Part shown: piece after piece, positions 26,588 through 34,660 of the stretch
Numbering within the stretch: the first letter of the stretch is position 1
Layout of the letters: every line of letters starts with the position of its first letter
The notes under the pieces: model-generated
Told to the model about the DNA's origin: nothing
What the model saw: only the letters and a program-made list of their open reading frames with translations
Database searches by the model: none
Position numbers and translations under genes: made by a program
From: a virus
Strand: one strand, 5' to 3'
IMG/VR virus record: IMGVR_UViG_3300017776_000052
Location: 1 to 37,765 of that record
Length of the DNA: 37,765 bases

Positions 26588-26961
26588 ACGATCCGTATGG
26601 GCCTATTGCATTCGGGGAGGCTGATATGCCAACACTGGCAGAGCCTGAGAAACCCAAGCAGGACAAGCACGCTCGCCGGAAAGCAATCCCCTTATTCGAG
26701 GGGGTCTTCAAATACTTTCCGAAGGCTCTCTGTGAAGTTGCTAAGTGCAGTCAAGCGGGGAGTGAGCAACATCATCCCGGTCAGCCCCTTCATTGGGATC
26801 GAGCCAAGTCTAGCGATGAGCCTGATGCACTGCTCAGACACCTGCTCCAGTATGATCAACTAGACGATGACGGCATGCTTCACGCAGCCAAGGTCGCATG
26901 GAGGGCGCTTGCCTTGCTTGAGAAGACAATCGAAGCTAGAGGGGAAGATCCGCTGGCATGA
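26584..26961 (+). CDS. dATP/dGTP diphosphohydrolase-like (DUF5664-type) protein
   Basis: A 125-aa protein starting at GTG 26584 within the exonuclease stop. The pattern PLFEGVFKYFPKALCEVAKCS, followed by a W-containing loop, DALLRHLLQ and LHAAKVAWRALALLEK, matches the small all-helical phage family called DUF5664 or dATP/dGTP diphosphohydrolase N-terminal. Family members with known roles hydrolyse deoxynucleotides to alter pools, some in phages that replace adenine. No PurZ-like synthetase is in the window, so a modified-base pathway is not indicated here. The family call is moderately sure, the substrate unknown. Confidence 0.6.
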   Translation: MNDPYGPIAFGEADMPTLAEPEKPKQDKHARRKAIPLFEGVFKYFPKALCEVAKCSQAGSEQHHPGQPLHWDRAKSSDEPDALLRHLLQYDQLDDDGMLHAAKVAWRALALLEKTIEARGEDPLA

Positions 26962-27407
26962 TTGATGTCTTTGTCGCTGGCTCGCCCAAACCTCAAAGTC
27001 GCCCCCGCGTAGCAGTGCGCGGGGGCCGGGCTATGGCCTATAACGCAGACTCGAAAGACATGACAGCTTGGAAGGCAGCTCTGGATGCTGCTCTCAAGTC
27101 GATTAGTTTTGGGAGTTTTGGGAGTTTTGGGGGGCCGATGCATGTGGAACTGGTGTTCCGACTGCCACGTCCGAAAGCTCATTACCGCACCGGGAAGTTC
27201 TCCCACCTACTAAAAGACTCCGCGCCGGGCGACGAGGGATCTCGATGCGATGTCGATAACCTTTCCAAGGTCGTGCTCGACAAGATCACGCGCTCAGGCT
27301 ACTGGATTGACGACAATCAGGTCGTGTTCATGTCCGTCCGAAAGCGATGGGCATTTGAAGAAGACCCTGGTTGTGAGGTGCGCGTGATACCGATTGCAAA
27401 AAAATAA
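26958..27407 (+). CDS. rusA: RusA-like Holliday junction resolvase
   Basis: A 149-aa protein. The catalytic signature is intact: Asp98, Asp100 and Lys104 in CDVDNLSKVVLD and Asp119 in WIDDNQV, spaced exactly as D70, D72, K76 and D91 of E. coli RusA. N-terminal GSPKPQSRPR is also typical. It cuts four-way junctions made in recombination and packaging. An odd feature is three perfect tandem copies of a 9-bp unit (27105-27131), giving SFGSFGSFG in the linker between the first strand and the core. Confidence 0.9.
   Translation: MIDVFVAGSPKPQSRPRVAVRGGRAMAYNADSKDMTAWKAALDAALKSISFGSFGSFGGPMHVELVFRLPRPKAHYRTGKFSHLLKDSAPGDEGSRCDVDNLSKVVLDKITRSGYWIDDNQVVFMSVRKRWAFEEDPGCEVRVIPIAKK
27105..27131 (+). 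repeat. Three tandem 9-bp repeats in the resolvase gene
   Basis: AGTTTTGGG is repeated three times without mismatch. Each copy encodes Ser-Phe-Gly and keeps the frame, so copy-number change would lengthen or shorten a loop without breaking the gene. Confidence 0.85.
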
Positions 27408-27417
27408 TAAAAAAGTA

Positions 27418-27445
27418 TTGACCCTCCATTCATTTCGATTAGGTT
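27418..27445 (+). promoter_or_regulatory. Candidate promoter for the pseudoknotted RNA
   Basis: TTGACC (27418-27423) is a good -35 box. TAGGTT (27440-27445), 16 bp later, is a weak -10. A start near 27452 would begin the transcript just upstream of the first helix of the structured RNA and in front of the replication operon. The -10 match is poor, so a non-sigma70 consensus is possible. Confidence 0.4.
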
Positions 27446-27451
27446 ACCTAC

Positions 27452-27548
27452 ACATTACCTGTGGCGGGTATTAAACGAGTTTCAAAGCTCCCTCTGTTGA
27501 CCAACCCGCCACGGTTCATATAAGGTCTAAGCAGAGGGAGTTTTTTTT
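27452..27548 (+). ncRNA. Pseudoknotted small RNA or leader ending in a terminator
   Basis: Two perfect 9-bp helices interleave. GTGGCGGGT (27461-27469) pairs with ACCCGCCAC (27504-27512). CTCCCTCTG (27488-27496) pairs with CAGAGGGAG (27532-27540). The order A-B-A'-B' is an H-type pseudoknot with loops of 18, 7 and 19 bases. Eight T follow at once (27541-27548). A possible promoter lies just upstream, so the gap may produce a discrete RNA of about 95 nt, or act as an attenuator for the downstream replication genes. I do not match it to any known riboswitch or ribozyme class. The 5' end is inferred. Confidence 0.65.
27488..27548 (+). terminator. Intrinsic terminator formed by the second pseudoknot helix
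   Basis: CTCCCTCTG and CAGAGGGAG close a 35-base loop and run directly into eight T. The upstream AAA can also pair with the T tract. The loop contains the 3' strand of the other helix, so termination could depend on whether the pseudoknot forms. Confidence 0.6.
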
Positions 27549-27551
27549 ATT

Positions 27552-27773
27552 ATGATAAGCCGACTAAACCAACAAGATGAAAGCGCAAGCGGGCCGTGCC
27601 CACTTTGTGAAACAACAAAGTCCGAGAACCTCACGCTACAAATCCAGCTGGATCTGTGTCGTGGAATAATCGCGGAGCAGCTAGAGCTATTGAAGGATCT
27701 GACCGCGGCAGCGGATGCAGCGAATACTTACTTGAACGAGTTCGGATTTTCCGATAAAGACCAAACCAAATAG
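27552..27773 (+). CDS. Small hypothetical protein
   Basis: A 73-aa protein with a CPLC pair near residue 16, which could be half of a metal-binding knuckle, and a helical remainder (LCRGIIAEQLELLKDLTAAADAA). It starts 3 bp after the T tract of the structured RNA, so its translation may depend on readthrough. No family is recognised. Confidence 0.55.
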   Translation: MISRLNQQDESASGPCPLCETTKSENLTLQIQLDLCRGIIAEQLELLKDLTAAADAANTYLNEFGFSDKDQTK

Positions 27774-27777
27774 AACA

Positions 27778-28041
27778 ATGATAACGATCGAAAGGATAAA
27801 GGAGCGAGCTCACAGTTTGCTTGAATCACACATCGACAAATCCCGATGCCTGCTCAAGCCTGCTGCTCACATGAACGATTGGGAAATTAGCAACTTTCTA
27901 GTCGGTTTTGAGGACATCGGGGATGCTGTGCTCTCCCTCAAGGAGGACGAGTTCGCCTTGGATGAGGAGATGACAAACCTGGAAGCTGCCGCATTTATCG
28001 CTGAGGCTCGGGAGGAGATCGAGAGAACAACTGAATTATGA
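27778..28041 (+). CDS. Small acidic helical protein of unknown function
   Basis: An 87-aa acidic, helical protein without recognised motifs. It lies between the previous small gene and the replication initiator, overlapping the latter by ATGA, so it is probably translated with it. A helper or modulator of replication is possible but only inferred from position. Confidence 0.6.
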   Translation: MITIERIKERAHSLLESHIDKSRCLLKPAAHMNDWEISNFLVGFEDIGDAVLSLKEDEFALDEEMTNLEAAAFIAEAREEIERTTEL

Positions 28042-28859
28042 ACTGGATAAACTTAAATATCGATGTGATCAGGGGCGAAGAGTATATCGACGCTGAACCT
28101 GTATCACGGGCGACATGGATCTCACTAATGGCTTGGTGCTGTAGCCAAGAGAATGGAGGAGTCATTAAAGATGCTCGTGCATGGGGTGATCGCAAATGGC
28201 AGCAGCTATGTGGTGTCACGCTTTCGGAAGTAGAAACCACATGCTTTCTATATGGTTTTGAGGGGGATAACCTAGTGGTTAATTTCTACCCTCTGGATCA
28301 GGAGTTGAAAGTGCAAAAGAATAGGCAGTCAGGGAAGAAGGGTGGCAGGCCTCGCAAAGTTGAAGCTCTGCAATCCATTGAAACACAAGGAGAAAAACCA
28401 TGTGGTTTACCAGATGGTTCCGATTCGCTTAAACGTAATAGTAATAGTAATAGTAATAGTAATAGTAAAGTAAGTACGATTACTCCTACAATAACGCCTG
28501 CGGCGAATGGGGGAGAGCTTCTCGATGAAGTTGACACTCCGACGAAGAAGCAGGCCAAGAAGAAAACAAAGAAGACATTCGTCCCACCCAGCCGGGAGGA
28601 GTTCATTGACCACGCTGTCGCGACTCTCCCTCGTCGGAATCCAGACTGGAGTCCAGAGCAGGCGTTCCGTTGCGCTGATCAGCAGTTCGATACCTACGTC
28701 GATCAGGACTGGCATGACGGGAACGGGAAGAAGATATCGAACTGGAAGAACAAATCAATCACAGCCATGCTCTACAGGAAGCCGCAAAACTTTGGGAGTA
28801 ATCCTCAGTTTTTCCTCGAACAAAAGAAGATTGCTGCTAACAGCGCATCACCACTCTAA
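28038..28859 (+). CDS. Replication initiator / replisome organiser-like protein
   Basis: A 273-aa protein. The N-terminal domain (about residues 1-100: NWINLNIDVIRGEEY, RATWISLMAWCCSQENGG, WQQLCGVTLSEVE, VNFYP) is the winged-helix type seen in phage replication initiators. A low-complexity linker includes (Asn-Ser)x5 at residues 134-143 and a Lys-rich run. The C-terminal domain (residues about 190-260, ending NGKKISNWKNKSITAMLYRKP) resembles helicase-loading domains. It lies directly before DnaB, as lambda O lies before P. The likely role is origin recognition and helicase recruitment. The hexamer repeat in its linker may mark an intragenic origin. Confidence 0.7.
   Translation: MNWINLNIDVIRGEEYIDAEPVSRATWISLMAWCCSQENGGVIKDARAWGDRKWQQLCGVTLSEVETTCFLYGFEGDNLVVNFYPLDQELKVQKNRQSGKKGGRPRKVEALQSIETQGEKPCGLPDGSDSLKRNSNSNSNSNSKVSTITPTITPAANGGELLDEVDTPTKKQAKKKTKKTFVPPSREEFIDHAVATLPRRNPDWSPEQAFRCADQQFDTYVDQDWHDGNGKKISNWKNKSITAMLYRKPQNFGSNPQFFLEQKKIAANSASPL
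28437..28466 (+). repeat. Five perfect tandem AATAGT hexamers in the initiator gene
   Basis: Five uninterrupted copies of AATAGT encode Asn-Ser repeats and sit in an AT-rich patch that continues into aaagtaagtacg. Tandem repeats inside a phage initiator gene recall the iterons in lambda O. A simple microsatellite made by slippage is the alternative. Confidence 0.85.
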
Positions 28860-28865
28860 AATCAA

Positions 28866-30149
28866 ATGAACCCAACAAATACAAACAAACCAATCTCTGC
28901 GGAGAGCGCAGAACGCGCCATCCTGTCAGTCATCCTCCAGCGCCCCGAGCAATTTGTGAGCAAAGCGAAAGCCGAGGATCTCCGTCCCGACCTCTTCGTG
29001 GATCACGCTTGCTCTACGCTGCTGCGGATTATCAATGAGTTCGACGCGAATGATCAGAGCATTGAGCTTATCTCGCTAACCGAGAGCCTCAACAACTCTG
29101 GCGATCTGGAGATGATCGGAGGCCCGGCTGGGCTTGCTACGCTCTACAGCTACGCGACCAACTCGCAGCACTGGAACGAACACGTAGCCATCGTGAAGGA
29201 GCGTTATTCGCGCCGTGTTGCGATCTCAGGCGCTAACAAGGTAATCGCGAGTGCGACTGAGGGAGATGCTGAAAGCGCCCTACAATCGCTTTCTGAGGCC
29301 AGAGAAGCAGTGCTGCTGTCCACAGCTAAGAAGCAGGCGTTCCAGAACGCTCAGGAATCCTACGATCGATTCCTCGCTGCGATGAATGAGCGCATGGATG
29401 GGGGGGATATGCCAGGTCAGGAGACTGGTATCGTGCAGCTAGACGAGCTAGGTGGTGGAATGCGACCTGGTGAACTCTGGATTGTGTGCGGTGAAACCTC
29501 CTCCGGTAAGTCTGCTCTCGCTTACCAGATGACCGTGCCAGCTATTGATGCCGATAAGAAAGTCCTAATCATGACGCTGGAGATGACGAGCGATGAGGTA
29601 TTCGCCCGTCTCATGTCGTGCCGTAGCCGAATCGATCTGGGCCGCATCATGAAACCTCGCGGCATGGACAAGGGTCAACTCATGCAGATGAAGCGATCCT
29701 CAGATGCCCTCCGTCAATCCAAGCTCCTGATCAGCGATCAGCCGAACATGTCTATCGATTACGTCTGCGCCCAAGCGGAGATGGAGGCTGAGATGGGAGG
29801 TGTTGATCTCCTTGTGGTGGATTACCTCCAGCTTTTAGATGGTGGACGCAAGACTGGCGACTCACAGGAGCAGGAGCTAGCGACCTACTCCCGCAGGCTG
29901 AAGCAGCTGGCCAAAAAACTGAAATGCCCAGTCATCTCACCTGCTCAGATTAACGACGAGGGAAGACTCCGGGGATCCCGAGCGATCGGACACGATGCTG
30001 ATGTCGTGCTCAAGATTCAATCTGATGGGGTTGCTGTCGCGAAATACCGCAACGCTCCTAAGAATGATGTGCTACCCCTCGGGCTGGTTGGTCAATTCCA
30101 ACGCTTCGAGACCATCCAATCCAAACCACAAACTCCATACAGACGATGA
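28866..30149 (+). CDS. dnaB: Replicative DNA helicase (DnaB-like)
   Basis: A 427-aa DnaB-type helicase. The N-terminal domain has AERAILSVILQRPEQF. The RecA core has Walker A GETSSGKS (Lys215), Walker B LLVVDYLQLL (Asp319) and a QINDEGRLRGSRAIGHDAD block carrying the arginine-finger region. It unwinds DNA 5' to 3' at the fork as a hexamer. It is somewhat shorter than bacterial DnaB (about 470 aa). It follows the initiator and overlaps the DnaA-domain gene (ATGA), so the three form a replication unit. No phage DNA polymerase or primase is seen in the window. Confidence 0.93.
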   Translation: MNPTNTNKPISAESAERAILSVILQRPEQFVSKAKAEDLRPDLFVDHACSTLLRIINEFDANDQSIELISLTESLNNSGDLEMIGGPAGLATLYSYATNSQHWNEHVAIVKERYSRRVAISGANKVIASATEGDAESALQSLSEAREAVLLSTAKKQAFQNAQESYDRFLAAMNERMDGGDMPGQETGIVQLDELGGGMRPGELWIVCGETSSGKSALAYQMTVPAIDADKKVLIMTLEMTSDEVFARLMSCRSRIDLGRIMKPRGMDKGQLMQMKRSSDALRQSKLLISDQPNMSIDYVCAQAEMEAEMGGVDLLVVDYLQLLDGGRKTGDSQEQELATYSRRLKQLAKKLKCPVISPAQINDEGRLRGSRAIGHDADVVLKIQSDGVAVAKYRNAPKNDVLPLGLVGQFQRFETIQSKPQTPYRR

Positions 30150-34613: not shown

Positions 34614-34620
34614 ATAAAAG

Positions 34621-34660
34621 CCCGGCTAGGTTGATTAACTTAGCCGGGTTTGCTGTTGTT
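34621..34660 (+). terminator. Terminator-like hairpin after the methyltransferase
   Basis: CCCGGCTAGGTT and AACTTAGCCGGG pair over 12 positions with one G-T wobble and a 4-base GATT loop, followed by a T-rich but interrupted run (TTTGCTGTTGTT). It lies 7 bp after the overlapping gene pair and 30-odd bp before the next gene, so it probably ends early transcription here. Confidence 0.65.

Follow-up and report, generated by a model that had tools for sequence, protein, structure and literature searches.

A candidate pseudoknotted RNA ending in a T-tract at the head of a phage replication operon

The gap between the RusA gene and the next start codon in a virus genome record (IMGVR_UViG_3300017776_000052; the whole stretch of 37,765 nt that was analysed is here called the window) holds two interleaved inverted repeats that are followed by a run of T. 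Do these repeats encode an RNA, would that RNA fold into a pseudoknot, and what would such an RNA do for the replication genes that lie behind it?

Architecture and genomic setting of the predicted RNA

The + strand of the window encodes RecT (25032), a YqaJ nuclease (25913), a dGTP-diphosphohydrolase-like protein (26584), and RusA (26958-27407) ahead of the predicted RNA, and a 73-aa gene, an 87-aa gene, a rep-like gene, a DnaB helicase, and a DnaA-C-domain protein (30146) behind it, with a cytosine methylase and the terminase further downstream. This order bears out the placement at the head of a replication operon that had been proposed in a first-pass annotation of the window, made from the sequence and its open reading frames. 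The module takes up nearly the whole space between the RusA stop codon and the next ATG, with ~10 nt left ahead of the predicted -35 box. The 73-aa protein had no match in Pfam, PHROG, or PADLOC, and its homologues in three related phages are 37-40% identical and fast-evolving. We found no integrase or repressor among the window genes scanned and no clear origin signal in the GC-skew profile around the RNA. At the DNA level, 50,697 phage records yielded chance-level matches only; a DnaB search of prokaryote genomes confirmed nothing with the single protein and gave only distant relatives (≤33% identical) with an alignment. Elsewhere in the window, between the methylase and the next gene, there is a strong hairpin (34618-34651; 15 pairs, a 4-nt loop, AAAA before and TTT after), which looks like an ordinary, possibly bidirectional terminator.

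Table 1. Parts of the predicted RNA and the genes that follow it in the window
Feature	Position	Strand	Remarks
Predicted -35 box, TTGACC	27418..27423	+	pattern TTGAC-N8-CATTTCG-N2-TAGRTT common to L008
Predicted -10 box, TAGGTT	27440..27445	+	RNA start placed near 27452
Predicted RNA	27452..27548	+	~95 nt, from promoter start to end of T-tract, as judged from promoter and T-tract
Helix A, 5' arm GTGGCGGGT	27461..27469	+	9-bp perfect pairing with A'
Loop L1	27470..27487	+	TTTC at 27480-27483
Helix B, 5' arm CTCCCTCTG	27488..27496	+	9-bp perfect pairing with B'
Helix C, 5' arm GACC	27499..27502	+	covaries across six type A copies
Helix A, 3' arm A' ACCCGCCAC	27504..27512	+	within the loop that C closes
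Loop L3 GGTTCATATAA	27513..27523	+	would cross helix A
Helix C, 3' arm GGTC	27524..27527	+	pairs with GACC 27499-27502
Helix B, 3' arm B' CAGAGGGAG	27532..27540	+	9-bp perfect pairing with B
T8 tract of the predicted intrinsic terminator	27541..27548	+	directly after B'
First gene after the RNA, 73 aa, PCPLC motif	27552..27773	+	homologues in G002, G001, L114
rep-like gene	28038..28859	+	PHROG 23776 (unknown function); function by position only
DnaB-like replicative helicase	28866..30149	+	Pfam DnaB_C 1.5e-41, PHROG 19

The four arms, their perfect 9-bp pairing, their A-B-A'-B' order, and the eight T that follow are exactly as the first-pass annotation had them (Table 1). Parts beyond that first reading are a short helix C, a C-to-A' junction of 1 nt that permits coaxial stacking, AAAG at the end of L1 (27484-27487) that is able to extend helix B into the T-tract, and the start codon of the next gene at 27552, 3 nt beyond the T-run. 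The B hairpin is G+C-rich and has the T8 directly 3' of it, which is the structure of an intrinsic (rho-independent) terminator; its loop of 31-35 nt is far above that of usual terminators, and a standard terminator scan therefore missed it. The B/C hairpin and A-A' occupy non-overlapping sequence, and the loop lengths look sufficient for both to coexist.

A TTGACC box upstream had been proposed to start an RNA by the first helix, and the sequence fits this reading: TAGGTT follows 16 nt on, and the predicted start lies 9 nt 5' of helix A. From the end of the -10 box to A the spacing is 13-15 nt across the six copies of the RNA that we assign to type A (see below) and 15 nt in the window. Support for the promoter comes from this conserved position and not from its hexamer score, which is equalled by 16% of random window 85-mers. 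A simple consensus promoter scan of the + strand from 27.5 to 30 kb gave no match; it likewise fails to pick up the weak promoter that we propose. With no + strand promoter match between the RNA and DnaB, operon messages there would need read-through of the terminator, which argues for a terminator that is regulated or tuned.

Two such helices in this order had been called very unlikely by chance. Locally this stands: when the 161-nt region was shuffled 20,000 times with its dinucleotides preserved, interleaved perfect helices appeared 706 times at a minimum length of 7 bp, 50 times at 8 bp, and 3 times at 9 bp, and A/B is the sole interleaved 9/9 helix pair in the whole window. Over all 37.8 kb, however, ~0.07 such pairs are expected (an estimate derived from the shuffle counts), and the statistic alone is moderately significant, which is suggestive and not proof. 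It is the comparison with related phages that makes the evidence for the predicted pseudoknot decisive.

Until B' has been transcribed, all six type A copies are predicted to fold as the A-A' hairpin, which is still predicted in most members when transcripts are extended upstream. Nested energy models, which do not include pseudoknot energy, favour B/C above A in five of the six. We found no alternative antiterminator pairing and no ligand or protein partner.

Related phages and covariation of the helices

A search with RusA led to L008 and L009 (~79% identical). At the same place after RusA, L008/G001 has a helix A (TTAGCGGAGCG/CGCTCCGCTAA) and a helix B (ACCACCTG/CAGGTGGT) followed by a T-tract and an ATG, with arms quite different from those of the window and with the promoter pattern that both share (Table 1). 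An RNA of the same kind is present in G002, whose DnaB is 88% identical to that of the window; relative to L008 it carries two compensatory pairs in A/A' (TTAGC/GCTAA to TTGAC/GTCAA), and the remaining differences all fall at unpaired positions. Searches with DnaB added L114 and L116/L117. In L114, A is identical to that of the window and B is different, with one U.G pair in B, a wobble that speaks for RNA over DNA. L116/L117 has one copy in front of a D12 DNA methylase and a second in front of the rep-like gene, and the two share one promoter that is absent elsewhere in the examined parts of that phage genome. A possible third L116 copy (14538) was left out, since its loop leaves zero nucleotides for L3.

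These copies, which we call type A, have the order promoter, 13-15 nt, A, L1, B, internal loop, C, 0-2 nt, A', L3, C', B', T-tract, and ATG. Helix A has 9-13 bp, B has 8-13 bp, and C has 4-7 bp; L1 spans 14-21 nt and often ends in TTTC, L3 spans 9-12 nt, and the internal loop between B and C is short. TTTC before B is found in L114, L008, G002, and one L116 copy, and also in L168 and L182. In the six copies from five phages, which were selected by a scan that required pairing, all 126 compared cells hold standard pairs, and 19 of the 21 pairs vary; less biased are L008 and G002, where the RNA occupies the homologous place behind conserved genes, and the separation of scores. In a descriptor scan of 1.4 Mb, the members scored 23-28 and L035 scored 22.0, with other independent matches at ≤19.4 and a shuffled subset at ≤17.8; a match at 23.0 on the opposite strand mirrors one of the L116 copies. 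When further loci were scanned later, L174 (22.4) and L201 (21.4) were the top non-members, and both were then put in a looser group, type B.

Two interleaved helices with compensatory changes, as in an H-type pseudoknot, are thus found in copies that were chosen by a pairing-demanding scan and, for L008 and G002, at a homologous position. The first-pass annotation had named homologous phages without compensatory changes as grounds for refutation; the related phages instead have such changes in all three helices, with the promoter-like sequence at a fixed distance, and its central claim of a pseudoknotted RNA ending in a terminator is strengthened. The helices, their covariation, the promoter-like sequence with its position, and the place in the operon can be read directly from these genomes, and together with the changing letters they indicate that the shape of the RNA itself is under selection in related phages. 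The arms are exchanged as discrete alleles: those of the window and G002 differ (DnaB 88% identical), and the window and L114 share A (DnaB 56% identical). The first downstream gene also varies by phage and encodes the 73-aa protein, an HNH-like protein, a D12 methylase, an antirepressor, or rep.

In G002 the RNA is separated from the operon by a gene on the - strand (L032 2713-3327) whose 204-aa product looks, on visual inspection, like a Mom-type DNA modification protein; the stretch TTAACACATGATTGATAGAATGAA at the start of this gene recurs before the next one. The DnaA-C-domain protein and the genes following it are nearly identical in L033 (10102-10518) and L114 (3266-3682), whereas the DnaBs are only moderately alike, which is a sign of recent exchange.

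Candidate functions and known RNA families

The first-pass annotation had offered either a free small RNA or a leader in which termination depends on folding. Here we infer transcription, termination, the order of folding, regulation, and any signal that relieves termination from the arrangement of the parts. We lean towards a leader RNA, transcribed from its own promoter, that would fold as an H-type pseudoknot and stop just short of the first gene, i.e., an attenuator that also yields a short RNA. A sigma-70-type promoter would start an RNA of ~95-105 nt at the head of the replication operon, and helix A would form first, with the 5' arm of B lying in its loop. As C' and B' emerge, C and B would close around A' to give the pseudoknot, with C stacked on A over a junction of 0-2 nt; with A already formed, a hairpin whose loop spans 30-40 nt could close soon enough. 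Helix B and then the U-tract would stop transcription just before the first start codon, and the element would both release a compact short RNA and set the level of replication mRNA. The varying first downstream gene is not what a dedicated cis-regulator predicts and counts against reading the element as an attenuator.

More tentatively, as a possibility that we hold below even chances, the element could represent an undescribed class of phage RNA that is conserved in topology and not in sequence and heads the replication operon of a set of uncultivated phages. The knot would make a long-loop terminator work, its opening and closing would set replication mRNA, and the changing arms would keep the RNAs of neighbouring phages apart.

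An independent small RNA gene that acts on host or phage RNAs or proteins and merely fills the gap, with read-through into the operon being incidental, seems to us rather unlikely. Such a gene would have its own promoter-like sequence and both ends in or beside helices, as is the case here, and the two L116 copies before different genes, the varying first downstream genes, and the compact packing that accounts for the nearby ATG all agree with it; yet the element lies upstream of the replication operon in every phage with readable context, the operon would still depend on read-through in the absence of another + strand promoter match before DnaB, and same-sense or complementary matches of ≥12 nt do not occur elsewhere in the window.

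The element could instead be a translational leader, in which hairpin B masks a Shine-Dalgarno sequence in B' and the knot governs ribosome access to the first gene. We consider this improbable: at a distance of 6-19 nt from the ATG, the G-rich B' could pair with the anti-Shine-Dalgarno sequence in 13 of 14 elements, but a T-tract directly after the stem suits termination better, and start codons of the window phage avoid Shine-Dalgarno sequences, with a mean anti-Shine-Dalgarno energy of -1.6 versus -3.6 kcal/mol at random places. Sequestration by hairpin B thus appears disfavoured. The depletion at window start codons is a hint that the host group does not depend on Shine-Dalgarno sequences.

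Slightly more improbable still is a phage-specific antisense or immunity RNA like P4 CI or P1 C4, whose arms would work from one RNA copy on another, so that the operon of a superinfecting relative is silenced. The swapping of arms as discrete alleles among close relatives would suit it, but the scanned genes include no integrase or repressor, no separate target site of ≥12 nt was found in the window, and the arms pair intramolecularly. Chance inverted repeats or protein-binding DNA palindromes, conceivable insofar as two inverted repeats in 80 bp may arise across a 38-kb window, have a negligible share and appear already contradicted by the recurrence at the homologous place in other letters with compensatory changes, by the fixed strand order of promoter, helices, and T-tract, and by the U.G pair in L114.

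No Rfam family reached its gathering cut-off, and permissive searches gave sub-threshold matches only (Phe_leader was rejected at 22.6 bits versus a cut-off of 55), in agreement with the earlier view that the RNA falls into no known riboswitch or ribozyme class. A sequence-conserved ligand-binding core, as in riboswitches, was not found, with type A sharing only scattered loop letters such as the TTTC before B. The trans-complementary target that would place the RNA with IsrK, P1 C4, or P4 CI was absent from the window at ≥12 nt, a length that leaves shorter or G.U-rich sites outside the test. Toxins of the ToxN, CptN, or AbiF kind were absent among ten downstream proteins (Pfam and PADLOC), and the RNA has no direct repeats, which AbiF-type RNAs may not need; type III toxin-antitoxin identity was rejected for lack of an adjacent toxin and of tandem repeats. 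A pseudoknotted terminator before phage replication genes was not found described in the literature covered, which takes in a minority of subscription journals.

The closest parallels share single aspects of the element. P1 C4 and P4 CI are short terminated RNAs from a phage promoter, with read-through giving the mRNA of the next genes; the RNA described here differs in lacking an Rfam match and a detected trans target, in being conserved by topology, and in preceding replication genes. HK022 put is a structured RNA just after a phage early promoter, with two stem-loops and conserved features, that prevents termination. It resembles our RNA in its position right after a promoter and in that both may act on RNA polymerase, but the structure here ends in a terminator. 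Ordinary intrinsic terminators have the same G+C-rich stem and T-tract, without a loop of ≥30 nt that holds one strand of a second long helix. The SAM-II riboswitch is an H-type pseudoknot in a leader near the expression platform, whereas here there is no conserved pocket, both helices change freely, no Rfam family matches, and the phage genes have no common metabolite. The preQ1 riboswitch classes (PMC11625349) show the same likeness and the same differences. IsrK of prophage Gifsy-1 (PMC4825925) is a short terminated RNA from a phage promoter whose read-through product is the mRNA of the following phage genes, much like the RNA predicted here; the contrasts are again that our RNA has no trans target found, keeps its topology and not its sequence, precedes replication genes, and has no Rfam match. 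RCd22-AbiF and type III antitoxin RNAs, of which the ToxI-type are pseudoknots, are likewise structured RNAs directly upstream of a protein gene (PMC12373285, PMC8860590), but the genes downstream of our RNA vary, none of those tested matches a known toxin, and the RNA has no repeats.

Structured RNAs are usually found by conserved sequence, and close relatives here keep the topology only, so homology searches and Rfam miss the RNA. If termination depends on the knot, the element would be a compact terminator tuned by a pre-formed pseudoknot helix. It would then provide simple control of phage replication genes and a clean way to study what a knotted nascent RNA does to RNA polymerase.

Type B and looser candidates

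A scan for T-tailed, long-loop hairpins just before an ATG brought up L119, L118, L201, L213, L182, L168, and L174. In these type B loci, the loop contains a small hairpin and, behind it, a segment that is complementary to sequence lying 22-32 nt 5' of the stem. In a test that was blind to helix A, every DnaB homologue was represented by the best T-tailed long-loop hairpin ≤4.5 kb upstream of it. Such a hairpin was present at ten phage loci, each of them with an upstream partner for the loop (p = 0.0005 in five type A loci and 0.01-0.07 in five type B loci; combined type B, 4e-4). An eleventh hairpin, in bacterial contig L136, had no significant upstream partner, and the hairpin was absent in 27 other entries, several of which are fragments or duplicates. 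Type B loci are probably relatives or parallels of type A and not proven members; another loosely fitting case is L035, where an AntA antirepressor follows. For L174, the pairing CGACATGA was superseded by TGAACCCC/GGGGTTCA.

The A segments of L119, L118, L201, L213, and L174, just upstream of the hairpin, have the common motif GGGA(T/G)TGA(G/A)ACC, and TTCATGT occurs in some type B hairpin loops. By motif reading, the first gene is HNH-endonuclease-like in L119 (6001-6453), L174 (4207-4674), L118 (5456-5770), L213 (after 5059), and L033 (6985-7602), with the Pfam HNH match for L119 falling below the cut-off. The position directly behind the RNA may thus be favoured for gene insertion.

A scan of named phages with related terminases (Microcystis, Rhodoferax, Ochrobactrum, and two Manatee Spring records) gave no clear member. 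Manatee Spring phage MW202462 has a T-tailed long-loop hairpin before an ATG (L240 33775, - strand), with a 7-nt upstream partner for the loop (TTGGCGG), and this public phage record may hold one more member.
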